Origin: Bernardetia sp.
Lineage (GTDB): Bacteria > Bacteroidota > Bacteroidia > Cytophagales > Bernardetiaceae
Reading direction: 5' to 3'
DNA: 60,916 nucleotides
Assembly: GCF_020630935.1 (NCBI RefSeq)
Contig: NZ_JAHDIG010000021.1
Location: 1-60,916 of the forward strand
Shown: piece after piece, positions 5,048 through 38,038 of the stretch
How positions within the stretch are numbered: the stretch's first letter is position 1
Layout of the letters: each line of letters begins with the position of its first letter
Notes under the pieces: model-generated
The model's database searches: none
The model's input: the letters and a program-made list of their open reading frames with translations, nothing else
What the model was told of the DNA's origin: nothing
Position numbers and translations under genes: made by a program

Positions 5048-5196
5048 AAGTTGTTTAAGACCTGAAAGTGAGCGAAGCTAATAGAGAAAAAACAAATTAC
5101 ATTACAATCTGCTCTAACGAGACTGACCTAATAAATCAAGGTCAGACTGACAGGTCAGTACCGATAACTGTACAAAAATACATTCTTAAACAACTT
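5048..5196. repeat. Intergenic element with 13-bp inverted ends (family B)
   Basis: AAGTTGTTTAAGA (5048-5060) and its exact reverse complement (5184-5196) bracket a 149-base unit. Inside is CTGCTCTAACGAGACTGACC. A related sequence recurs at 35024-35098 beyond leuS. This suggests a small dispersed non-coding element lying between the convergent pspA and AsmA-like genes. Confidence 0.55.
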
Positions 5197-26155: not shown

Positions 26156-27442
26156 TTACTCGTTGAAAACCGTATCAAACTTTGCTTGGATTTTATCTAA
26201 TGACAAGTTTCCAATGCTTCCCTCATGCGTATGTTCTACTTTGGTTTGAGCTTCAAATTTTCCTTCCAAAATTTGTTTTCCCAACACTTGATACGCCTCT
26301 CTAAAACTCATTCCTTGCATTACGAGTTTGTTTAGATTCTCCACGCTATACATATATTCATACATTGGATTTTCTATGCTTTTTGTATTGATGATAATAT
26401 TTTCCATCATAAAACGCATCGCTTGGAGGTTTTCCAAACTAACTTCTATGGAATTGATGAGACTTTCCTTGAGTTCTTGAAAATCACGATGATAACCACT
26501 TGGTAAGTTGTTGGTAATCAGAGCAATTTCTTGTGGCAGAGCTTGAATTTTGTTGCTTCTAGCACGGATAAGCTCCATTACGTCAGGGTTTTGCTTGTGA
26601 GGCATAATACTTGACCCTGTCGTTAGTTCTTTTGGAAAAGATACGAAACCAAAATTTTGGCTCATATACAAACACACATCCATCGCACATTTAGACAGTG
26701 TAGAAGCCAATGAAGAAAGAGCAAAAGCAACTGTTTTTTCTAACCTTCCTCTGCTCATCTGTGCAGCCACCACGTTGTAGTGCATCGTAGAAAAACCTAA
26801 TTCATCAGTAGTCATTTGTCTGTCGATGGGAAAAGAAGTGCCATAACCAGCAGCCGAACCCAATGGATTTTGGTCTGCAATTTTATAAGCTGCATTTAGG
26901 AGAATCAAATCATCAATCAGTGTCTCGGCATAAGCTCCAAACCACAAGCCAAACGAGGAAGGCATCGCCACCTGCAAATGCGTATAACCAGCCAGTAGAA
27001 CGTCTTTGTGCTTCTCACTCAAACCCATCAAAACATCGAAGAGTTGTTTTACTTCGCTTTTTATGTTCCCAAGTTCTGCTTTTACATACAAATGTAAATC
27101 GACAAGCACTTGGTCGTTTCTTGAACGAGCTGTATGGATTTTTTTACCAATATCTCCTAGTTTTTCCGTCAAGAGAAATTCAATTTTGCTATGCACATCT
27201 TCAAACTGCTCTTCGATAGTAAATTCTCCTTTTTCTATTGTTTCTTGAATGTGATTTAATTCAGTTACTAACTTTTCAAGTTCTGGTTCTGTCAAGATGC
27301 CAATTTTGCAAAGCATTTTGGCGTGAGCAATATTTCCCAAAACATCGTATTTAGCGAGTTTCAAGTCTAAAACTCTATCTCTTCCTGCTGTATATTCTTC
27401 TACAAACTGATTGATGTTATAGCCTTTGTTCCAAAGTTTCAT
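26156..27442 (-). CDS. argH: Argininosuccinate lyase
   Basis: The 428-residue enzyme cleaves argininosuccinate to arginine and fumarate, the last step of arginine synthesis. The fumarase-superfamily signature GSSIMPHKQNPD (about 280) and the active-site region TARSRNDQV are present. It is the last gene of the minus-strand arginine operon, about 100 bases after argE. Length is slightly below the usual 450-470, with a short C-terminus. Confidence 0.96.
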   Translation of the reverse strand: MKLWNKGYNINQFVEEYTAGRDRVLDLKLAKYDVLGNIAHAKMLCKIGILTEPELEKLVTELNHIQETIEKGEFTIEEQFEDVHSKIEFLLTEKLGDIGKKIHTARSRNDQVLVDLHLYVKAELGNIKSEVKQLFDVLMGLSEKHKDVLLAGYTHLQVAMPSSFGLWFGAYAETLIDDLILLNAAYKIADQNPLGSAAGYGTSFPIDRQMTTDELGFSTMHYNVVAAQMSRGRLEKTVAFALSSLASTLSKCAMDVCLYMSQNFGFVSFPKELTTGSSIMPHKQNPDVMELIRARSNKIQALPQEIALITNNLPSGYHRDFQELKESLINSIEVSLENLQAMRFMMENIIINTKSIENPMYEYMYSVENLNKLVMQGMSFREAYQVLGKQILEGKFEAQTKVEHTHEGSIGNLSLDKIQAKFDTVFNE

Positions 27443-27541: not shown

Positions 27542-28603
27542 TTAGGTCAAAATATTCCCCAAAAGCTTGATATAATCTTTCAAGCCGTTTTCAAGTTCGT
27601 GTAAATAAATAAATTCATCAGCTTGATGCGAACGCAAAGAATCTCCAATTCCTAGTTTTACAGAAGGACAAGACAAAACAGCTTGGTCAGAAAGCGTTGG
27701 TGAACCGTAAACGGTATGACCATCTTTTATTCCAGCCTGTACAAAAGGATGTTCTTTCGGAATGCTAGACGAGTTTAATCTAAACGAACGTGCTTTGAGT
27801 TCACTATTTGTATTTTTATCAATAATTTCAAAAACTTCTGTGTTCTGATACATTTCATTGATTCTGACATCTACTACAAAATGACAAGACGCTGGTACGA
27901 CGTTGTGCTGACTTCCTGCATTTATCTGTGTAACACTCATTTTTACTTTTCCTAAAAACTCTGATTCTTTTGGGAATTGATAACTTTTAATCCATTCAAT
28001 ATCTTGTAAGACTTCATAAATGGCATTTTTTGTATTGTTGTGTGCTGCGTGTCCTGCAATGCCTTTTGCGTATCCATCTATTACTAAAAGTCCTTTTTCT
28101 GCAATGGCTAACTGCATTTGAGTTGGTTCGCCTATAATGGCAAAATCAATAATTGGTAAATATTTTATCAGTTCACACAAACCATTTTGCCCAGAATTTT
28201 CTTCTTCGCCTGTGGCTGCTACGATGAGATTATATTTTAGATTTTCCTGTTCGTAATAATGAACAAAAGTAGCCAAAAGAGCCACCAAAGAAGCTCCTGC
28301 ATCGTTACTTCCTAAGCCAAATAATTTCCCATCTTCGATAGTTGCCTCAAACGGATTTCGTGTATAGCCTTTGTTCGGACGAACAGTATCATGATGAGAA
28401 TTTAGCAAAATGGTAGGCTTACTTTCGTCGAAATGCTTATTTTTTGCCCAAATATTATTATATAATCTTTCGGTTTTGATGCCAAACTCTTGTAGCCATT
28501 TTTGAATGTGTAGAGCTGTTTCAGCTTCTTCTTCTGAAAAAGACTGGGTTTGGATAAGATTTTTAAGTAAATCAAGTGTTTTTTCTTGTAAAGATTCAAT
28601 CAT
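27542..28603 (-). CDS. argE: M20-family N-acyl-ornithine/citrulline deacylase
   Basis: The 353-residue metallohydrolase has the M20 zinc-site motifs LNSHHDTV, GSNDAGAS and TGEEENSG (about 150). In Bacteroidota this gene removes the acyl group (acetyl or succinyl) from acylcitrulline made by the neighbouring carbamoyltransferase. Its start overlaps the argB stop (ATGA), so the two are translationally coupled. Whether the acyl group is acetyl or succinyl is not decided by sequence alone. Confidence 0.9.
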   Translation of the reverse strand: MIESLQEKTLDLLKNLIQTQSFSEEEAETALHIQKWLQEFGIKTERLYNNIWAKNKHFDESKPTILLNSHHDTVRPNKGYTRNPFEATIEDGKLFGLGSNDAGASLVALLATFVHYYEQENLKYNLIVAATGEEENSGQNGLCELIKYLPIIDFAIIGEPTQMQLAIAEKGLLVIDGYAKGIAGHAAHNNTKNAIYEVLQDIEWIKSYQFPKESEFLGKVKMSVTQINAGSQHNVVPASCHFVVDVRINEMYQNTEVFEIIDKNTNSELKARSFRLNSSSIPKEHPFVQAGIKDGHTVYGSPTLSDQAVLSCPSVKLGIGDSLRSHQADEFIYLHELENGLKDYIKLLGNILT

Positions 28604-29379
28604 AATTTGAGTAGTGTATAAGTTGAATTGTTGAGAGAAAGCATAGACGTATTTCCAATCATCACACGAGTTACGCCCTGCTGCAAGGCTTCAAAAGAGT
28701 TGGTAAGTTTTGGAATCATTCCAGTTGAAATAATTTCTTTAGCTTTAAGTTCTCCAAAATCTGTTTCTGAAATAATTGGAATTACAGAATCGTCATCATT
28801 AGCATCTAACAGAACACCCTTTTTTTCAAAGCAGTACATCAAGTTTACTTCAAAATTTTCAGAAAGTCCTACGGCAAGTTCTTTGGCTATGGTGTCGGCA
28901 TTGGTATTGAAAAGCTGTCCGTTTCCGTCGTGCGTAATGGCAGAACAAACTGGAACAATTTTATTTTCCAAGCATAAAGTCAGAAATTCTGTATTTACTT
29001 TTTCTACATCGCCTACAAAACCGTAATCAATTTCCTTGACAGGACGTTTTTTAGCTACCAAAATATTTGCATCTGCTCCAGTAAAGCCTAGTGCATTTAT
29101 TTTTTTTGCTTGTAATTTGGCTACTAATTCTTTGTTCACTTTCCCTGCATAGACCATTGTTACGATTTCTAGTTCTTCTTTTGAAGTGATGCGTCTGCCT
29201 TCTATAAGTTTTGATTCAATGCCTAATTTCTCACTAAGCCGAGTGGCTAATTTTCCTCCTCCGTGAACAAGCAATTTAGGAAAAGGCAGTTTTTCGAAAT
29301 GATTGATAAAACCTTCCATTAGCTCAAGATTATCAACTACATTTCCTCCTATTTTGACGATGTAAAGTTGTTTTTTCAT
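28600..29379 (-). CDS. argB: Acetylglutamate kinase (acyl-glutamate kinase)
   Basis: The 259-residue kinase carries the amino-acid-kinase motifs KIGGNVV near the start and LVHGGGK (about 38-44), plus the ATP-side region ISTGMIPKL near the end. It phosphorylates N-acyl-glutamate, step two of the pathway. I start at MKKQLYIVK (29379); the longer frame adds an unconserved leader. It lacks the N-terminal arm of arginine-inhibited hexameric kinases, so strong end-product feedback on this enzyme is not expected (inference). Confidence 0.94.
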   Translation of the reverse strand: MKKQLYIVKIGGNVVDNLELMEGFINHFEKLPFPKLLVHGGGKLATRLSEKLGIESKLIEGRRITSKEELEIVTMVYAGKVNKELVAKLQAKKINALGFTGADANILVAKKRPVKEIDYGFVGDVEKVNTEFLTLCLENKIVPVCSAITHDGNGQLFNTNADTIAKELAVGLSENFEVNLMYCFEKKGVLLDANDDDSVIPIISETDFGELKAKEIISTGMIPKLTNSFEALQQGVTRVMIGNTSMLSLNNSTYTLLKL

Positions 29380-29478: not shown

Positions 29479-30426
29479 TTATTTTTGATTTAAAATATGG
29501 TACAAAACAGTCTGTGCTGAATAAATACGATTTTGGGCTTGTGCCAACACTAAAGAATTTGAAGAATCCAACACTTCATCACTTACCACCACATTCCTAC
29601 GAACAGGCAAACAGTGCATAAATTTAGCTTTATTGGTCAGTTTCATTTTTTCACCATTAATAATCCAATCTTGATGCTGCGTTCTAATTTGCCCATAATT
29701 TTCAAAGGAAGACCAATTTTTAGCATACACAAAATCAGCATTTTCAAAGGCTTCTTTTTGATTATGAATAACAGGCGTATTTTTTAAAATACTTGGGTCT
29801 AGGTTAAATCCTTTTGGGTTGGTTACAATGAGTTCGGCATCAGTTTGAGAAACCCATTCTACAAAAGAGTTTGCCACAGCTTGAGGCAAAGCACGAACGT
29901 GAGGCGACCACGAAAGCACCACTTTTGGCATTTTGATTTTCTTGTGTTCGGCAATCGTAATGCAATCTGCAAAGGCTTGTAAGGGGTGTCCTGCTGCACT
30001 TTCCAAAGAAATAACTGGGACAGAAGCCGACTGAATAAACTTTTTCAAAACAACTTCATTGTAATCTTTTTCTTTGTCGTTAAGGGAGGCAAAAGTACGC
30101 AAACCGATAATATCGCAATATTGAGAAAGAACTCCAGCAGCTTCTTTGATGTGTTCTTGAGTGTTACCATTCATCACAGCACCGTCTTCTAATTCCAACG
30201 CCCAACCATCTTGATTGAGGTTCATTACCATTACGTTCATTCCCAAATGTTGAGCAGCTTTTTGTGAGCTAAGACGTGTTCTTAGGCTAGGATTCAAAAA
30301 AACTAAACCTAATGTTTTGTTTTTACCCAAATGATTAAACTCAAAAGGATTTTTTTTGATAGAAATAGCTTTTTCTACCCATTCATTGACGCTTGAAATG
30401 TCGTTAGCAGAGATAAATTGTTTCAT
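29479..30426 (-). CDS. argF': N-acetyl- or N-succinyl-ornithine carbamoyltransferase
   Basis: The 315-residue transcarbamylase has the carbamoyl-phosphate motif SLRTR (47-51) and the HCLPVRR motif (about 272-278). It belongs to the clade acting on acylated ornithine. The residue known to set acyl specificity (Pro90 in the B. fragilis succinylornithine enzyme, Glu92 in the Xanthomonas acetylornithine enzyme) is Gln90 here, in NGNTQEHI. The acyl group used is therefore open. It follows argD by three bases on the same strand. Confidence 0.9.
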   Translation of the reverse strand: MKQFISANDISSVNEWVEKAISIKKNPFEFNHLGKNKTLGLVFLNPSLRTRLSSQKAAQHLGMNVMVMNLNQDGWALELEDGAVMNGNTQEHIKEAAGVLSQYCDIIGLRTFASLNDKEKDYNEVVLKKFIQSASVPVISLESAAGHPLQAFADCITIAEHKKIKMPKVVLSWSPHVRALPQAVANSFVEWVSQTDAELIVTNPKGFNLDPSILKNTPVIHNQKEAFENADFVYAKNWSSFENYGQIRTQHQDWIINGEKMKLTNKAKFMHCLPVRRNVVVSDEVLDSSNSLVLAQAQNRIYSAQTVLYHILNQK

Positions 30427-30429
30427 TTT

Positions 30430-31566
30430 TTAAAGTAGTATTTTTTGTAAGGCTTCTACAAAAGGTTTGATTTCTTGTTTGTTGATAGACAAAGGAGGTA
30501 AAATTCGAAGTAAATTCGGATTGGCAGAAGAACCTGTCATGATATGAAATTCCTCTAAAAGTTGCTTTCTAATTTCTTTGATAGGAAATTCTAGTTCTAC
30601 GCCTAACATCAATCCTTTTCCTTTTATTTTTTGAATGGCAGGAATAGATTTTAATTCTTCTCTTAGAAAATCAGAGATTTCTTTAGCATTTATCATTAGA
30701 TTATCTTTCTCTAAAACTTCCAAAACGGACAAACTAGCCACACTTGCCAAATGATTTCCTCCGAAAGTCGTCCCCAACATTCCGTGTTTGGCTTCAATAT
30801 GAGGAGCGATAATTACACCAGCGACAGGAAAACCATTTCCCATTCCCTTCGCAGTCGTAATAATATCTGGTCTTATATTTGGATTGCTCTGATGAGCAAA
30901 AAAATTACCTGTACGACCAAAACCACTCTGAATTTCATCTAAAATGAGCAAGGCATTGTATTTTTTACAATAGGTTTGTAGCAATTCTAAAAAATCATCA
31001 GAAGGATAATCTAAACCTCCCACACCTTGCACACCTTCCACAATGACAGCGCAAATATCATCGTAGGTTTCAAAAGCATTTTGGAATTGTTTTTCATCAT
31101 TCAAATCTAAAAATACAACAGGAAAATTATCGTATTGTAGAGGAGAATGAATTTTACAGTTGTCTGTAACACAAAGAGCTGCTGCCGTTCTGCCGTGAAA
31201 GCTGTTTTTAAAAGCGATTACTCTTCGTTTTTGGGTATGAAAAGAAGCAAGTTTAAGAGCATTTTCATTTGCTTCTGCACCACTATTACAGAGAAATAAA
31301 TTATAATCTGTGTAGCCACTTAACTCTCCTAGTTTTTGAGCTAGTTCTTCCTGCAAGGGCATTTGCACAGAGTTAGAATAAAAGGCTATTTTTTCAAGCT
31401 GCCTTTGTAAAGCATTTACATAATAGGGCTGTGAATGTCCAATAGAAATTACGCCATGTCCACCGTATAAATCTAAATAAGGTGTTTCGTTTTCGTCATA
31501 GACATAAACGCCTTTTGCTTTTTGCAGACTAATATCAAATTTGGGATATACTTCAAATAAATTCAT
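30430..31566 (-). CDS. argD: Acylornithine aminotransferase
   Basis: The 378-residue class III aminotransferase transfers an amino group from glutamate to N-acyl-glutamate semialdehyde. The PLP lysine lies in TTAKGMGNGFPVAG, preceded by the conserved LILDEIQSGFGRTG. GGNHLASVASLSVLE completes the active-site set. Length and motifs are typical. It is close-packed with argF'. Confidence 0.95.
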   Translation of the reverse strand: MNLFEVYPKFDISLQKAKGVYVYDENETPYLDLYGGHGVISIGHSQPYYVNALQRQLEKIAFYSNSVQMPLQEELAQKLGELSGYTDYNLFLCNSGAEANENALKLASFHTQKRRVIAFKNSFHGRTAAALCVTDNCKIHSPLQYDNFPVVFLDLNDEKQFQNAFETYDDICAVIVEGVQGVGGLDYPSDDFLELLQTYCKKYNALLILDEIQSGFGRTGNFFAHQSNPNIRPDIITTAKGMGNGFPVAGVIIAPHIEAKHGMLGTTFGGNHLASVASLSVLEVLEKDNLMINAKEISDFLREELKSIPAIQKIKGKGLMLGVELEFPIKEIRKQLLEEFHIMTGSSANPNLLRILPPLSINKQEIKPFVEALQKILL

Positions 31567-31674: not shown

Positions 31675-32658
31675 TTAAAAATAAGAGGCTTTAAGCTGTA
31701 AACCTGTTGTTTGAGGTAAGCCTAATTGTAAATTCATGTTTTGAACAGCCTGTCCTGCTGCGCCTTTCAGAAGGTTATCGATAGCAGAAGTAACCAGTAC
31801 CATGTCGCCTTTTTTCTGTACTTGAAGCAAACAATAATTTGTATTAACTACTTGCTTTAAGTGAATATCTGCATCGCTAATTTTCACAAAAGGTGAATCT
31901 TTATAAAAATCTTGATATAATTTTTTCAGTTCTTTTTCTGAAAGCTCTGTTTGTGTATAGACAGTTGCAAAAATTCCTCTTGTGAAATTTCCACGCATCG
32001 GAATAAAATGTAGTTCTTTTTCAAAATCGTTTTGCAGACTGTTTAAAGATTGTTTTATTTCTGTAAGATGTTGATGTTCAAAAACTTTATAGACAGAAAT
32101 ATTTTCATTTCTCCAACTAAAATGCGTTGTGGTTTGATGGCTTTGTCCTGCTCCCGTTGCTCCTGTGATAGCATTGATATGAATATCATTTTTTATGCTT
32201 TTAGCCTTTGCCAAAGGAAGCAAAGCCAGTTGAATAGCTGTAGCAAAACACCCTGGGTTGGCTATGTACTTTCCGTTTTGAATTTTATCTTTATTAAGTT
32301 CTGGCAATCCATAGACAAACTCTGAATCGTTGTAATTCGCATCTTTTTGAAGTCTAAAGTCTGCACTCAAATCAATAATTTTAGTAGAGTTTGAAAACGC
32401 ATTTTGTTCTAAAAAACTCTTTGCCTTTCCGTGTCCAGAACATATAAAAATGACATCTACATTCGGATTTATTTGATTTGAAAAAACAGTTTCTACTTCA
32501 AACAAGTCTTGATGGATTTTTTGAACTTTCTCTCCTGCATGAGAATGACTTTGAATGAAGTCTAGTTCTATATTTGGATGATGAATGAGCAAACGCAAAA
32601 GCTCTCCAGCTACATAGCCACTTCCACCCACTACACCAATTTTGAATTTTTTGTTCAT
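31675..32658 (-). CDS. argC: N-acetyl-gamma-glutamyl-phosphate reductase
   Basis: The 327-residue enzyme has the nucleotide-binding start VGVVGGSGYVAGELLRLL, and the catalytic cysteine sits in NPGCFATAIQL (about 137). It reduces acylglutamyl phosphate to the semialdehyde. It lies between argG and argD, in the conserved Bacteroidota order. Confidence 0.95.
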   Translation of the reverse strand: MNKKFKIGVVGGSGYVAGELLRLLIHHPNIELDFIQSHSHAGEKVQKIHQDLFEVETVFSNQINPNVDVIFICSGHGKAKSFLEQNAFSNSTKIIDLSADFRLQKDANYNDSEFVYGLPELNKDKIQNGKYIANPGCFATAIQLALLPLAKAKSIKNDIHINAITGATGAGQSHQTTTHFSWRNENISVYKVFEHQHLTEIKQSLNSLQNDFEKELHFIPMRGNFTRGIFATVYTQTELSEKELKKLYQDFYKDSPFVKISDADIHLKQVVNTNYCLLQVQKKGDMVLVTSAIDNLLKGAAGQAVQNMNLQLGLPQTTGLQLKASYF

Positions 32659-32762: not shown

Positions 32763-33959
32763 TTATTTTTGATTGAGTTGATTAAAAATATGAAGTGGAT
32801 TAGCTAGTATTTTGGTAAAGCCTTTGACATCATCACCCGACCAAGCTGTATTTTTCTCTCCGTACTGTCCAAACTTACTTTTCATCATATCAAAATCTGA
32901 TTCAATACCTTGCACAATGAAACGATAAGGGTGAAGTTCTACCATTACCTTTCCTGTTACATTTTGCTGTGAATCTTCTAAAAAGGATTCAATATTTCTC
33001 ATAACAGGCTCAAAATATTGTGATTCATGAACAAACATTCCATACCAGTTACTTAGCTGTTCTTTCCAATACTGCTGCCACTTTGAAAGAACATGTTTCT
33101 CCAACGTATGATGAGATTTGATAAGAATTGTAGCTGCTGCTGCCTCAAAACCTACTCTTCCCTTAATTCCAATAATCGTATCTCCTACGTGTACATCACG
33201 ACCAATAGCATATTTATTGGCTATTTGTTCTAGTTTTTGAATGGCTTCTAAAGGCTGCATTTTTTCATCATTAATTCCTACACATTCGCCTTTTTCAAAA
33301 TATATGGTTATTGTTTTCGGCTCGGTTTCAGAAAGCTGACTTGGAAATGCTTCGTTAGGAAGTGCTTGGTGTGAAGTAAGTGTCTCTGCTCCTCCTACGC
33401 TTGTTCCCCAAAGTCCTTTATTGATAGAATATTTTGCTTTTTTCCATTCCCAATCAATACCGTTTTGTTTTAAATACTCTACTTCTTCTTGTCTTGAAAG
33501 ACTTTGCTCACGTATGGGCGTAAGAATTTCTATGTTGGGAATGAGCAGTTGAAATACCAAATCAAAACGCACTTGGTCGTTTCCTGCTCCTGTGCTACCA
33601 TGAGCAATATAATCTACTGCCAGTTCTTTTGCATATTCTGCCAAACTGATAGCTTGATAAGTTCGTTCTGCACTCACAGAAAGAGGATAGGTATTATTTC
33701 TCAAAACATTTCCAAATAGTAAGTACTTGATTATTTTTTGGTAATAAAGCTCACTTGCTTCGATGGTTTTGTGAGAAACTGAGCCTAGATTTTTGGCTTT
33801 TTTCTCTATTTCTTGTAATTCTTCTTCTGAAAAACCACCTGTATTAACAATAGCCGTATGGACTTCTAAGCCTAATTCTTTGGCTAAATAGATAGTACAG
33901 TAAGAAGTGTCTAAGCCTCCACTAAAGGCTAAAAGGACTTTTTTATTTGTTGTTTTCAT
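32763..33959 (-). CDS. argG: Argininosuccinate synthase
   Basis: The 398-residue ligase joins citrulline and aspartate using ATP. The N-terminal PP-loop LLAFSGGLDTSYC (9-21) is intact, and the HGSTGAGNDQVRFD motif (about 115-128) follows. It starts inside the end of the GNAT gene (17-base overlap), so the two are coupled at the head of the operon. Confidence 0.96.
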   Translation of the reverse strand: MKTTNKKVLLAFSGGLDTSYCTIYLAKELGLEVHTAIVNTGGFSEEELQEIEKKAKNLGSVSHKTIEASELYYQKIIKYLLFGNVLRNNTYPLSVSAERTYQAISLAEYAKELAVDYIAHGSTGAGNDQVRFDLVFQLLIPNIEILTPIREQSLSRQEEVEYLKQNGIDWEWKKAKYSINKGLWGTSVGGAETLTSHQALPNEAFPSQLSETEPKTITIYFEKGECVGINDEKMQPLEAIQKLEQIANKYAIGRDVHVGDTIIGIKGRVGFEAAAATILIKSHHTLEKHVLSKWQQYWKEQLSNWYGMFVHESQYFEPVMRNIESFLEDSQQNVTGKVMVELHPYRFIVQGIESDFDMMKSKFGQYGEKNTAWSGDDVKGFTKILANPLHIFNQLNQK

Positions 33960-34620
33960 TGTAAATAACGTGTTTGAAAATGGGAAAATCTTTTAATTTG
34001 CGTTGTAGGCGAATGCTGCGAAGTCGGAGAAAGCGGTTGAAGTTTGTCCAACGTTGATTTTTTTGCTCTTTTTGTTCTTCTTTTGGGTTCTGATAAGTAG
34101 AAAGGTCGTACATCATGCCTGTACAGAGACAAAGTTTTCTTTCATTTCTCATCAGAATATCATAATTTTTACAGCTTTGGCAACCTTTCCAAAAAGCATC
34201 GTCTTGGGTAATTTCTGAAAAAGTAACAGGTTTATATCCTAAATCGGAATTGATTTTCATAACGGCAAGGCTCGTCGTAATTCCAAATAATTTAGCTTGT
34301 GGATATTTATTTTTGGAAAGCTCTAGGGTAGCTCTTTTGATAGATTTGGCGAGACCTGTTTTTCTAAAATCGGGGTGAACAATCAGACCCGAATTAGCTA
34401 CATATTTTTGATTTTCCCACGTTTCGATATAGCAAAAACCCACTATATTTTCCTCTTGCAAGGCAATAACAGCCTTACCTTCTACAATTTTCTGACGGAT
34501 ATAATTAGGGTCTCTTTTGGCTATGCCTGTGCCACGAGCTTGGGCAGCTTCTTCAATCATTTGGCAAATAGACTCTGCATACGCTTGATGCAAAATACTG
34601 GTTACAGAAATAGTTATCAT
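33943..34620 (-). CDS. GNAT N-acyltransferase, probable glutamate N-acyltransferase of the arg operon
   Basis: The 225-residue protein has the GNAT acetyl-CoA loop VHPDFRKTGLAKSIKRATLE and a C-terminal cysteine cluster (CQSC, LCLCTG) that may bind zinc. This GNAT type heads arginine operons in Bacteroidota and is taken to supply N-acyl-glutamate, the ArgA step. No argJ or classical argA is present in the window. I start at MITISVTSILHQ (34620). It is the first structural gene after the Arg-rich leader, overlapping argG by 17 bases. Confidence 0.82.
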   Translation of the reverse strand: MITISVTSILHQAYAESICQMIEEAAQARGTGIAKRDPNYIRQKIVEGKAVIALQEENIVGFCYIETWENQKYVANSGLIVHPDFRKTGLAKSIKRATLELSKNKYPQAKLFGITTSLAVMKINSDLGYKPVTFSEITQDDAFWKGCQSCKNYDILMRNERKLCLCTGMMYDLSTYQNPKEEQKEQKNQRWTNFNRFLRLRSIRLQRKLKDFPIFKHVIYNENNK

Positions 34621-34754
34621 AAGGCAAAGGAAGATAAGGCTCATACAGATGTAAGCAGCCGAAAAACAACCTACAAAACTGCATGTGCAGAAAGGAAAAT
34701 AAAAAAGAAGGAATATATAAATGGATGACCTATGAAAATATCATAAGTCTAAGA

Positions 34755-34820
34755 AATCAAAAAGCCTTAAAAGGAGTTTGAATAAACGAGTGGTTTGATA
34801 AAGTACGCAACCTTATCAAA
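34755..34820 (-). promoter_or_regulatory. Hairpin set downstream of the Arg leader (candidate attenuator)
   Basis: On the minus strand TTTGATAAGGT (34820-34810) pairs with ACTTTATCAAA (34804-34794) over 11 bp (one G-T pair) around a five-base loop. The hairpin begins two bases after the leader stop codon, so a ribosome at the stop would cover its first arm. The ATCAAA of the second arm (34799-34794) can instead pair with TTTGAT at 34761-34756, next to a small CCTT/AAGG stem and a TTTTT run. This gives mutually exclusive structures, as an attenuator needs. The terminator half is weak by eye. Confidence 0.55.
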
Positions 34821-34822
34821 AA

Positions 34823-34951
34823 TTATATAGACGCACAAAGGCGAAAAAAGCGTCGTCGTCGTCGGAAAAAATTACGAGATGCTTTCGCAGGTGTTGTAGA
34901 GCCGATGTTTTGCTCTTGTAGTGGATAATATGTAGCGTCTAGCTTGTTCAT
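34823..34951 (-). CDS. Arginine-run leader peptide of the arg operon (42 codons)
   Basis: A minus-strand frame of 42 codons starts with ATG at 34951 and stops with TAA at 34823. It contains seven Arg residues, five of them consecutive (residues 30-34, codons CGA CGA CGA CGA CGC) in the context NFFRRRRRFFRLC. It lies about 200 bases before the first arginine-biosynthesis gene on the same strand, behind a strong Bacteroidota promoter and just before a hairpin. This is the layout of a ribosome-stalling leader that senses charged tRNA-Arg. The protein itself resembles no family. Codons were checked one by one; the function is inferred from context. Confidence 0.75.
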   Translation of the reverse strand: MNKLDATYYPLQEQNIGSTTPAKASRNFFRRRRRFFRLCASI

Positions 34952-34959
34952 TATAAAAA

Positions 34960-34991
34960 CAAAGGTAGGAATGTTTTTTTATTTATCCAAA
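34960..34991 (-). promoter_or_regulatory. Bacteroidota promoter for the arg leader/operon
   Basis: On the minus strand TTTG (34991-34988) and TACCTTTG (34967-34960) are 20 bases apart, matching the Bacteroidota -33 TTTG and -7 TAnnTTTG boxes exactly. Transcription would start about 4-6 bases before the leader ATG, giving an almost leaderless mRNA. Confidence 0.75.
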
Positions 34992-35023
34992 AGCAATTTT
35001 TTAGAAAGTGGGATTTGATGTAA

Positions 35024-35098
35024 AAGTTGTTTTGAGAATAGAGATAATATTTATGGTCTGCTCTAATGAGACTGACCTTAATAAACTGAGGTCAAGAC
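35024..35098. repeat. Intergenic element, family B copy 2
   Basis: AAGTTGTTTTGAGA, then CTGCTCTAATGAGACTGACC (35058-35077), then an AATAAA..GAGGTCAAGAC segment parallel the element at 5048-5196 in the same order. The right inverted end is not seen, so this copy may be truncated. It lies between the arg promoter and leuS. Confidence 0.5.
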
Positions 35099-35134
35099 AA
35101 AAAAATAGGTCAGAAAATGAATTTCTGACCTATT
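35097..35134 (-). terminator. Intrinsic terminator after leuS
   Basis: AATAGGTCAGAAA (35104-35116) and TTTCTGACCTATT (35122-35134) pair perfectly around five bases; on the minus strand a T run follows. It starts 10 bases after the leuS stop. Confidence 0.85.
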
Positions 35135-35143
35135 ATAAAATAA

Positions 35144-38038
35144 TTAAATCACAATATTAACAATCTTCTTAGGGACTAAAATAAAACGCTTTGGTGTTTT
35201 GCCTTCTAGCCATTTTTGTACGACTTCGGTAGCCAACACTTGCTTTTCTATGTCTTCCTCCGGTGTATCTAAAGCAAAAGACATTTTTGAGCGCACCTTG
35301 CCATTGATAGAAATTGGATATTCAAACTCACTTTCTTTCAAATACTCTTCGTTGTAGTTTGGATATTCAGCTTTTATGATAGATGTATTTTTTTCTAAAG
35401 CAACGTGCCAAAGCTCTTCCGTGATGTGTGGAGCAAAAGATGAAAGAACGACCAAAAATGGCTCTAAGATTTCTTTCTTATGGCACTTCATTGAAGTTAG
35501 TTCGTTGGCACAAATCATAAACGTACTCACACACGTATTCATTGAAAGGCGTTCGATGTCTTCGCTTACCTTTTTGATGGTTTTGTGAAGTGTTTTGAAC
35601 TCGTCTTTTGTTGGTTTTTCATCATTTAAAGCCAAATCGCCATTATCGTGGTAGAAAAGTCTCCACACTTTACGTAAAAACTTCTGTACACCATCAATTC
35701 CACTTGTATCCCACGGTTTAGAATATTCTAAAGGCCCAAGGAACATCTCATACAAACGAAGCGCATCGGCACTGTATTCTGAAACTACATCGTCTGGATT
35801 GACAACGTTGTGAAGACGTTTCGACATTTTTTCTACTTGCGAACCACAAATAAATGTACCGTTTTCCTCTTTTATAAACTCTGCATTTTCTGTCTCTGGT
35901 CTGAATTTTTGATATTTTGCAATATCCAAAACATCATCTTTTACCATACTAACAGGAACATGAAGAGGTGTAATATTAACTTCTGTGTGTGCTGGAATTG
36001 CTTCGTGTCCTGCAATCTGATTGATGCCTTCTACTTTCTCAGCATCAGATTTGAGTTTTTTGATTTGCTTATAAATTCCTTCGCTCAAATAAACTTGGAA
36101 ACCATTAATTCTATAAATCAAAGATGATTTTCCTTGAATCATTCCTTGATTAACTAACTTTTTAAACGGTTCATCAAAATTTAAAAAGCCTTTATCGTGT
36201 AAAAACTTCGTCCAAAAACGAGAATACAATAAGTGTCCTACGGCGTGTTCTGCGCCACCTACATATACATCTACTTGATTCCAGTAATCAACAGCTTCTT
36301 TGGAAGCAAAAACACGCATATTTTGAGGGTCAGTATAACGTAAGAAATACCAAGAAGAACCTGCCCACCCCGGCATTGTCGTGAGTTCATAAGGATATTT
36401 GCCTTGATAGTTGAAGGCTTCTGCACGTCCCAAAGGAGGTTCTCCTTCTGCCGTTGGGCGATAACTATCCACTTCGGGAAGCATTAAAGGCAATTCAGAA
36501 TCTGGAAGCGAATGAGGAATACCCTCTTTGTAATAAATTGGAATTGGTTCTCCCCAATATCTCTGACGACCAAAAGCAGCATCACGTAATCTAAAATTTA
36601 CTTTTCCTGTGCCTGCTTTTTTCTCTTCTAATTTTTTAATTGCTGCTTGAATTGCTTCTTTGATAGACATTCCGTTGAGGAAATCAGAGTTTACTATTGT
36701 ACCTTCTTTTTCTGTGTAGGCTTCTTCTATTTTTCCGTTTTCGTCCGTTTTTGTCTCTTCAATCACTTTAACGATTTCCAAACCAAAATGAGTAGCAAAA
36801 CGAAAATCACGCTCATCAGAGGAAGGAACACCCATCACAACGCCTGTGCCATAGCCAGAAAGTACATAATCTGCCACCCAAATAGGCGTTCTTTTTCCAG
36901 AAATAGGATTGATAACATAACTTCCTGTAAAGACACCTGAAACTGTTTTTACTTCGGCTTGGCGTTCACGCTCCGAACGGTTTTTGGCATAACTTACATA
37001 ATTTGCTACGGCTGCTTTTTGCTCGCTTGTCGTAAGCTCATCTATAATTTCAAGTTCTGGCGCAAGGGCAATATACGTAACTCCGTAAATTGTGTCTGGG
37101 CGAGTAGTGAAGGCAGTAAGTTCTGTTAGTTCCTCACTTTTATTATTTGCTGGGTTTTCTTCAATTTGGAAACTAAGCTCTGCTCCATACGATTTTCCAA
37201 TCCAATTTCTTTGCATTTCTTTGAGCGCATCCGACCAATCTACTTCGTCCAAACCTTTGAGCAAACGGTCGGCATACGCCGTAGTACGCATCATCCATTG
37301 AGGCATTTTTTTTCTTTCGACAGGAAAACCTCCACGTTCTGAAAGTCCGTCCTTTATTTCATCGTGTGCTAATACAGAACCTAGTTCTGCACACCAGTTT
37401 ACAATCGCTTCTGACTTATACGCCAAACGATATTTTAAAAGAATATCAGACTGTTCTTTTTCTGAAAAACCTTTCCATTCTTCTGCTGTAAATGAAGGTG
37501 TATCCTCATCACAAGCTGCATCTACTTTTTCATTGCCGTTTTGCTCAAAAAGTGTGATAAGTTTTTGGATTTCTTCTGCTCTATCTGTTTCGTTATTATA
37601 AAATGATTCAAAAAGCTGCTTGAAAATCCACTGTGTCCAACGGTAATAATCTGGATTAGAAGTACGAACTTCTCTTGACCAATCAAATGAAAAACCAATT
37701 TTGTTAAACTGTGATTTGAAGGTCTGAATATTTTGCGCTGTCGTGATAGCTGGATGTTGCCCTGTTTCGATAGCATACTGCTCGGCAGGCAAACCAAATG
37801 AATCAAAACCCATTGGATGAAGGACATTAAATCCTTTTTGGCGTTTGAAACGACTCAAAATATCAGAGGCGATATAACCAAGTGGGTGTCCGACGTGTAA
37901 TCCTGCTCCAGAAGGATAAGGAAACATATCTAAGACATAATATTTTGGTTTTGTCTTGTCATTCTCAACTTTATAGACTTCATTTTCTTCCCATTTAAGT
38001 TGCCATTTGGGCTCTATGAAACGTGGATTATATTCCAT
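35144..38038 (-). CDS. leuS: Leucyl-tRNA synthetase
   Basis: The 964-residue class I synthetase has the HIGH motif as HVGH in PYPSGAGLHVGHPLGY (about 41-56) and the KMSKS motif as KMSKR. The editing (CP1) domain with TTRPDTIYG lies between them. It is longer than the E. coli enzyme (860), with extra insertions around residues 150-190 and 650-700, as often seen in Bacteroidota. TACCTTTG at 38115-38108 on the minus strand may be its -7 box. Confidence 0.97.
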   Translation of the reverse strand: MEYNPRFIEPKWQLKWEENEVYKVENDKTKPKYYVLDMFPYPSGAGLHVGHPLGYIASDILSRFKRQKGFNVLHPMGFDSFGLPAEQYAIETGQHPAITTAQNIQTFKSQFNKIGFSFDWSREVRTSNPDYYRWTQWIFKQLFESFYNNETDRAEEIQKLITLFEQNGNEKVDAACDEDTPSFTAEEWKGFSEKEQSDILLKYRLAYKSEAIVNWCAELGSVLAHDEIKDGLSERGGFPVERKKMPQWMMRTTAYADRLLKGLDEVDWSDALKEMQRNWIGKSYGAELSFQIEENPANNKSEELTELTAFTTRPDTIYGVTYIALAPELEIIDELTTSEQKAAVANYVSYAKNRSERERQAEVKTVSGVFTGSYVINPISGKRTPIWVADYVLSGYGTGVVMGVPSSDERDFRFATHFGLEIVKVIEETKTDENGKIEEAYTEKEGTIVNSDFLNGMSIKEAIQAAIKKLEEKKAGTGKVNFRLRDAAFGRQRYWGEPIPIYYKEGIPHSLPDSELPLMLPEVDSYRPTAEGEPPLGRAEAFNYQGKYPYELTTMPGWAGSSWYFLRYTDPQNMRVFASKEAVDYWNQVDVYVGGAEHAVGHLLYSRFWTKFLHDKGFLNFDEPFKKLVNQGMIQGKSSLIYRINGFQVYLSEGIYKQIKKLKSDAEKVEGINQIAGHEAIPAHTEVNITPLHVPVSMVKDDVLDIAKYQKFRPETENAEFIKEENGTFICGSQVEKMSKRLHNVVNPDDVVSEYSADALRLYEMFLGPLEYSKPWDTSGIDGVQKFLRKVWRLFYHDNGDLALNDEKPTKDEFKTLHKTIKKVSEDIERLSMNTCVSTFMICANELTSMKCHKKEILEPFLVVLSSFAPHITEELWHVALEKNTSIIKAEYPNYNEEYLKESEFEYPISINGKVRSKMSFALDTPEEDIEKQVLATEVVQKWLEGKTPKRFILVPKKIVNIVI

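Follow-up and report, generated by a model that had tools for sequence, protein, structure and literature searches.

The arginine biosynthesis operon of Bernardetia sp. is probably controlled by an arginine-sensing, ribosome-mediated attenuator. In the window (the whole stretch of DNA analysed, 60,916 nucleotides), a short leader ORF with a run of Arg codons stands behind a promoter, and is followed by a hairpin, here called hairpin B, and by the arg operon (Table 1). The anatomy of the locus, the selection on Arg coding in relatives, the conservation and covariation of hairpin B, and the absence of the arginine repressor ArgR are established at the level of sequence. In the best reading, the amino acid and the RNA element are new, and the general kind of control, ribosome-mediated attenuation, is known. 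If true, the proposal would explain the control of arginine synthesis without ArgR in much of the Bacteroidota. It would also make arginine a further amino acid under leader attenuation, bring this type of control to the Bacteroidota broadly, and add a conserved RNA hairpin as a directly testable element.

A sequence-only reading of the window had described a 42-codon Arg-rich ORF, its promoter, an 11-bp hairpin, and a downstream arg operon; all were recovered, and their positions were confirmed. The promoter is an exact copy of TTTG-N20-TACCTTTG, which we take to be the Bacteroidota promoter motif, and the leader ATG lies 8 nt behind the TACCTTTG box (-7 box). The 301-nt leader RNA has a fold z-score of -4.5, and 0/100 shuffled sequences were equally stable. 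The 4.75-Mb genome has three places with a tract of five CGN codons, namely infB, a 51-aa Arg-rich ORF, and the leader, in a search with 14 of the 15 bases fixed or free as searched. The earlier reading had also given CGA a special role in stalling. This codon accounts for 4/7 Arg codons in the window leader, 1/4 in the leaders of congeners (which use CGT, CGA, CGT, and CGC), and 9.1% of the Arg codons in the 39 ORFs of the window that are 200 aa or longer. With one in four Arg codons in the congeners' leaders, CGA as a special stall codon is not general, and the idea was dropped.

Table 1. Features of the leader region and the arg operon in the window.
Feature	Position	Strand	Remark
leuS terminator-like hairpin	35134-35104	minus	separates upstream leuS (by TIGR00396) from leader promoter
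Promoter, Bacteroidota-type, TTTG-N20-TACCTTTG	TTTG 34991-34988; TACCTTTG 34967-34960	minus	exact match
Leader ORF MNKLDATYYPLQEQNIGSTTPAKASRNFFRRRRRFFRLCASI	34951-34823	minus	42 codons, 7 Arg
Predicted pairing TAGACGC (leader 5' part) with GCGTCTA (3' part)	34941-34935 with 34834-34828	minus	
Small hairpin AGAGC...GCTCT within leader	34916-34898	minus	fold prediction and alignment; sequence kept in congeners
Arg run CGA CGA CGA CGA CGC	34864-34850	minus	codons 30-34; other Arg at codons 26 and 37
Hairpin B TTTGATAAGGT-TGCGT-ACTTTATCAAA	34820-34794	minus	11 pairs, loop 34809-34805; 2 nt after leader stop
C-rich, G-poor stretch	34797-34738	minus	60 nt with 12 C and 6 G; overlaps the last 4 nt of the hairpin B 3' arm
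Second downstream hairpin GACTTATGA-TATTT-TCATAGGTC	34749-34727	minus	predicted; no U-run directly after; not conserved in congeners
argA-like GNAT acetyltransferase, first gene	33943-34620	minus	PF00583 above cut-off
argG	32763-33959	minus	TIGR00032 above cut-off
argC	31675-32658	minus	TIGR01850 above cut-off
argD-like acetylornithine transaminase	30430-31566	minus	best match TIGR00707, below its cut-off
argF', N-acetylornithine carbamoyltransferase	29479-30426	minus	NF003384 above cut-off
argB	28600-29379	minus	TIGR00761 above cut-off; internal ATG start, ORF list starts at TTG 29418
argE/dapE-like deacylase	27542-28603	minus	best match TIGR01910, below its cut-off
argH	26156-27442	minus	TIGR00838 above cut-off

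The operon begins about 200 nt after the leader stop, and its genes follow in the order argA-like, argG, argC, argD-like, argF', argB, argE-like, and argH. The argA-like protein had no match in NCBIfam at 1e-20. Comparison with congeners prefers its start at 34620 to the start at 34644 in the ORF list.

Six congeners were sampled, three of which contain the argA-like gene. All three (3/3) have a homologous leader, MTKNYCTYYPSQEQISISSTNIKRSRRFRLGASI and variants, with four Arg codons and an ATG 8 nt after an imperfect -7 box. The hairpin that follows, GACAGAAC-TACGT-GTTTTGTC, has the same geometry as in the window and a different sequence. Conservation of the Arg codons and the hairpin in close relatives, on which the sequence-only reading had staked its proposal, was thus found in every congener with the argA-like gene. 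By eye, the start of the congener leader can pair with its end, as AAACTAT/ATAGTTT or, compensated, as AAATTAT/ATAATTT. No argA-like match was found in the other three congeners, in one of which argG is cut by the contig end.

The regions upstream of 110 argA-like genes were collected: a set of 59 genomes gave 36 matches, of which 30 were used, and the best 80 of 209 matches in named genomes were added. Three pairs share DNA, which leaves 107 distinct loci. The genome G019 falls into the order of the window and is identical over the tested stretch to L068 of Runella aurantiaca, a member of the Cytophagales, which identifies this order as Cytophagales. A crude count of any Arg-rich ORF within 700 bp matched the antisense strand about as often as the sense strand. 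At four or more Arg, the counts on the two strands were 7 and 8 among the 30 loci (2.3 in shuffles), and 31 and 23 among the 80 loci (8.9 in shuffles). Since CGN runs are read as Arg runs on either strand, this antisense control was dropped; promoter-linked ORFs, shuffles, and other residues were used as controls instead. The promoter-linked test took ATG ORFs no more than 40 nt away from a promoter-like site and required 4 or more Arg in 8 codons. Such clusters occurred in 17/110 loci (17/107 distinct), including the window and the three congeners; the antisense strand gave 0/110, and 0.03 were expected from shuffles. At level 3, Arg was found in 19 loci vs 0.25 expected, Ser in 6 vs 0.45, and Thr in 6 vs 0.2.

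A second sample covered the phylum with 66 loci (65 genera), of which 6 are shared with the 110, and considered ATG ORFs ending 40-330 nt before the argA-like gene. At least 4 Arg in 8 codons were present in 24/66 loci vs 2.7 expected, and at least 5 in 10/66 vs 0.5; the remaining 42/66 loci have fewer than 4. At level 4, Ser, Leu, Lys, Thr, Pro, Gly, Ala, and His were found in 0-6 loci, which is near expectation. At level 3, the counts were 42 vs 11.1 expected for Arg, 16 vs 6.7 for Ala, and 12 vs 6.8 for Pro. These counts indicate that the Arg signal before the operon is general and mostly residue-specific. Among the f42 genera, 8/8 have a leader that reaches 4 Arg in 8 codons; the Runella leaders are Arg-poor.

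Coding selection on Arg in relatives is documented by codon comparison. Among 17 leaders of Dyadobacter and Telluribacter, synonymous differences outnumber non-synonymous ones only in the leader frame (608/446); the other two frames gave 220/803 and 106/882. The first Arg codon of these leaders alternates between CGA and AGG, and its third base covaries with the base predicted to pair with it (A-U to G-C). Of the 22 pairs in the Dyadobacter-type consensus fold, this is the only one with a both-sided change.

Hairpin B was searched in the 400 bp upstream of the argA-like genes, with a stem of at least 6 pairs and a loop of T[AG][CT]G[TC]. It was found in 44/110 loci (43/107 distinct), against 6/110 on the antisense strand and 0.85 expected from mononucleotide shuffles. 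For the alignment, identical segments were removed (43 to 36), and L053, likely a chance match, was left out. Among the 36 distinct sequences, both-sided changes occurred in 8/8 tested pairs, and the covariation score was 0.499, compared with 0.198 for shuffles; slid versions did not exceed 0.169. Since only sequences with a stem of 6 pairs or more had entered the alignment, it is biased towards pairing, and the 44/110 search is the fairer test. The outermost pair of the alignment is unpaired in 24/36. Four loop variants were observed: UACGU, UAUGU, UACGC, and UGCGU. In the phylum sample, hairpin B was present in 5/66 loci, all from the order of the window (f1, f10, f19); one Flavobacteriales MAG (L039) also has it. 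Hairpin B is, by comparative criteria, a conserved RNA element that recurs in other Cytophagales, with the loop U(A/G)(C/U)G(U/C) and a covarying stem. Pairing of the loop with the leader, and mimicry of the tRNA-Arg anticodon by the loop, were considered as well. The loop varies, and the UAUGU variant breaks the mimicry, so neither is claimed.

A covariance model of hairpin B was run over the 59 genomes. Among the matches listed, 13 had E <= 0.05: 9 before an argA-like gene, 3 inside ORFs, and 1 intergenic elsewhere in the Bernardetia genome. Eight of the 9 argA-like copies are represented in the training alignment; a copy outside the training set, in G043, lies beside the Arg leader MPNFSPLRRNRFTFRV. 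The window copy scored 26.3 bits in the window alone, and is absent among the genome-search matches listed. The model used alone is weak. A hairpin-B-like intergenic match in the Bernardetia genome (L163, C83:6947-6979; 26.5 bits) has no obvious Arg leader, and is probably due to chance. Rfam gave no match at the gathering score in window positions 34300-35300, the one hit, mir-14, being far below it (19.5 vs 53 bits). A search of 10 related loci yielded two Thr_leader matches. Both stayed below the gathering score, and both were located in L098, at the end of its argA-like gene or behind it.

The attenuator would work as follows. Transcription would start just before the leader ORF, as judged from the promoter, and a ribosome would begin the leader while RNA polymerase continues. 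When charged tRNA-Arg is scarce, the ribosome would stall in the Arg run and mask the RNA around the Arg codons; hairpin B would then be free to form, and the operon would be expressed. When Arg is ample, the ribosome would reach the stop codon and cover the 5' arm of hairpin B, and expression of the operon would be reduced. We infer this direction of control, as well as the manner of shut-off described below. Textbook attenuators use the stretch immediately behind the leader stop for the antiterminator; by this analogy, hairpin B fits best on the side of expression.

Modelling of the ribosome footprint gave probabilities of 0.62-0.99 for hairpin B when free, and the hairpin also formed with the ribosome on most Arg codons. 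With the ribosome at the stop, the probability was at most 0.15 in 9/11 loci, the exceptions being L051 (0.99) and L025 (0.40). Two Arg codons of L112 and one of L051 were exceptions of the other kind, where the ribosome blocks hairpin B. In L098, the leader frame extends into hairpin B. The sequence-only reading had proposed that a stalled ribosome frees the hairpin and that a ribosome at the stop blocks it. The modelling is in line with this part of the scheme, but its terminator half and a conserved alternative partner were not found.

One scan found no intrinsic terminator with a U-run between the leader and the operon in the window, and a second scan found none there in the window and the three congeners; the proposed terminator half was not supported. 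The alternative pairing ATCAAA/TTTGAT, which the sequence-only reading had put forward, is present in the window and absent from the three congeners. It was rejected as the switch mechanism for this lack of conservation, and inspection of the alignments by eye found no conserved alternative partner of hairpin B.

With no intrinsic terminator found between the leader and the operon, Rho is the most likely off-switch. Rho would act on the RNA behind hairpin B, which is rich in C and poor in G and in which 34797-34738 is a candidate Rho-loading region, and hairpin B would shield this region or bind a factor. C exceeds G after hairpin B in 14/15 groups, with a mean of 14.7 to 6.9 per 60 nt; the control regions before 39 window ORFs gave 8.9 C to 9.1 G per 60 nt. 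This C excess fits Rho, and is suggestive only. Rho is encoded in the Bernardetia genome (PF07497, 117.6 bits). Together with the C excess, this favours Rho as the off-switch, a tentative assignment with a probability somewhat below even.

Some relatives have intrinsic terminators. In the Marinifilaceae, strong ones lie behind the Arg leaders in 13/13 loci. Three loci of this family (L074, L078, L080) contain up to four tandem Arg-containing short ORFs, all within the 700 bp or so that precede the argA-like gene, and three of those in L074 are each followed by a terminator-like hairpin; they form an apparent tandem attenuator. Terminator-like hairpins behind Arg leaders were also found in L090 (Chlorobiota) and G101 (L216; f46). 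In both, leader sequence directly following the Arg codons can pair with the 5' side and loop of the terminator, over 10 bp in L090 and 9 bp in G101; these pairings came from a complement search, and their sequences differ. In L110, a longer leader-terminator pairing including G-U pairs was seen by eye, and the U-run scan had not picked out the stem-loop there. The arrangement of these Chlorobiota/Kapabacteria-type Arg leaders (L090, L110, G101) appears near-textbook. No leader of the L090/G101 kind was seen in L076.

Equilibrium folding made the terminator likely in most ribosome states of the relatives with terminators, and therefore says little on kinetic switching. For the first leader of L074, the terminator probability was 0.08 with the ribosome stalled at the first Arg codon and 0.84 at the second; for its third leader, it was 0.01 with the ribosome at the stop. 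In L081, it was 0.57-0.92 in all ribosome states.

ArgR (PF02863) was absent from the Bernardetia genome and 58 sampled relatives (0/59), and was detected in 8/14 control genomes. Among 296 genomes of the phylum, the argA-like gene occurs in 124, ArgR in 109, and both in 3 (G091, G282, G290); because the families are not independent, this exclusion is a strong pattern and not a test with a probability. The ArgR match of G091 has 25 bits, is at the cut-off, and contains a stop. In G282 and G290 (L205 and L206, one genus), ArgR directly adjoins the argA-like gene. Neither has an Arg cluster of 4, and G282 has one of 3; this genus may have switched from RNA to protein control. A wider reading concerns all Bacteroidota without ArgR. 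They might share a phylum-wide family of Arg-codon leaders, whose output in the Cytophagales would be a new factor-binding hairpin, switched by ribosome position and replacing the intrinsic terminator. This wider reading is doubtful, though conceivable. The factor may be Rho, a NusG-type protein, or arginyl-tRNA synthetase, the last because the loop often shows the ACG of the tRNA-Arg anticodon.

The leader could also act without premature termination, if the ribosome and the hairpins set the access to the argA-like start or the decay of the mRNA. Such translational or stability control would suit the window and the three congeners, where no intrinsic terminator was found, and the stretch from hairpin B to the argA-like gene is predicted to fold into more hairpins. 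In S. aureus, translation of rbf is subject to a leader that has two Arg codons, as stated in the relevant passage of PMC13009471. However, the leader stop and the argA-like start are about 200 nt apart, too far for direct occlusion of the rbfL type, and relatives have terminators behind their Arg leaders. We regard this mode of control as unlikely. An arrest peptide, whose nascent chain would sense free arginine or another ligand and not charged tRNA-Arg, is still less probable. In the Spirosomataceae, the motif HTTPFRFRS is conserved beyond its Arg codons, as such a peptide might require, but RNA pairing may account for part of this conservation. Between families, the leader peptides share only Arg-richness, and their Arg codons swap synonymously.

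Two further explanations leave regulation by the leader aside. The ORF might encode a small, functional Arg-rich protein, with the hairpin as part of its own transcript, and other Arg-rich short ORFs do exist in the Bernardetia genome. But the leader peptide has no Pfam match, and it varies across families while its position before the arg operon is kept, which makes a functional protein very improbable. Coincidence of a chance ORF and a chance hairpin might be suggested by the crude counts, which are alike on both strands, as expected where CGN runs give Arg runs either way. The promoter-linked clusters on one strand only (17/110 vs 0/110), the conservation in congeners, the phylum-wide Arg excess, and the hairpin statistics make chance almost negligible. 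Control by an arginine-sensing attenuator thus remains the preferred reading.

Leader-peptide transcription attenuators are classical for trp, his, thr, leu, phe, and ilv. The present locus shares with them a short leader ORF behind a promoter, a run of cognate codons, hairpins near the end of the leader, and a matching biosynthetic operon. It differs in the amino acid, arginine, and in having a conserved-loop hairpin in place of an intrinsic terminator, which was found in neither the window nor the congeners. Given this lack of an intrinsic terminator, the locus was not filed with the classical attenuators. Attenuation at a leader can also depend on Rho, as in tnaC. With the Rho-dependent mgtL, the locus would share a decision by leader translation, besides C-rich RNA after the leader and an encoded Rho, as far as the consulted part of PMC11282234 describes that system. 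Unlike mgtL and tnaC, the candidate here would sense Arg codons in a biosynthetic operon. Arginine T-boxes act through the charging of tRNA-Arg, and the locus would resemble them in controlling arginine genes at the RNA level through this charging. It differs in that no T-box match was found in the leader region, and in that sensing would go through leader translation. The conclusion of PMC1262725 assigns RNA-level control of arginine genes to T-boxes; the amino acids for which it names attenuators are histidine, threonine, and phenylalanine. The rbfL leader of S. aureus, according to passages of PMC13009471, shares Arg codons in a leader and pausing under Arg limitation. As described there, it has 8 residues with two Arg codons, overlaps the ribosome binding site, and represses a biofilm regulator at low arginine by acting on translation (PMC13009471).

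With Bacteroid-trp (RF01692), the locus would have in common that it is a cis-regulatory RNA of the Bacteroidota. Bacteroid-trp has the nature of a leader peptide. The locus itself is without a match to it; the single match obtained lies at another place in the genome and falls short of the cut-off. This family is listed in a table of PMC2864571. Leader attenuation is suspected before amino acid operons of Flavobacterium psychrophilum in a passage of PMC9723704, which does not mention arginine. The long 5' UTRs of Bacteroides thetaiotaomicron hold short ORFs resembling leader peptides, as reported in an excerpt of PMC7366714. Structured uORF motifs were described upstream of cysS and aroF, with none from the Bacteroidota in the part of PMC8632094 that treats them. 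A report of 2010 states that, to its knowledge, leader peptides had been unshown outside the Proteobacteria and Actinobacteria before its Firmicutes case (PMC2965389, in the passage concerned). In the consulted parts of the open-licence literature, no description of an Arg leader before an arg operon was found.

Two minor features accompany the leader. Counted from the A of the leader ATG, the hexamer ACATAT follows at a distance of 17-18 nt in loci such as L066, L070, L040, and L058, and also in the window and the congeners, as seen by eye. Its reading frame in L040 and L058 differs from that elsewhere, and it is possibly an RNA or DNA element. A dispersed repeat is located at 35094-35018, with another copy at 5108-5144. 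Its core of about 47 nt, TTGACCTCAGTTTATTAAGGTCAGTCTCATTAGAGCAGACC, is partly palindromic, and has at least 39 other matches in the Bernardetia genome (40 of 160 candidates scored).
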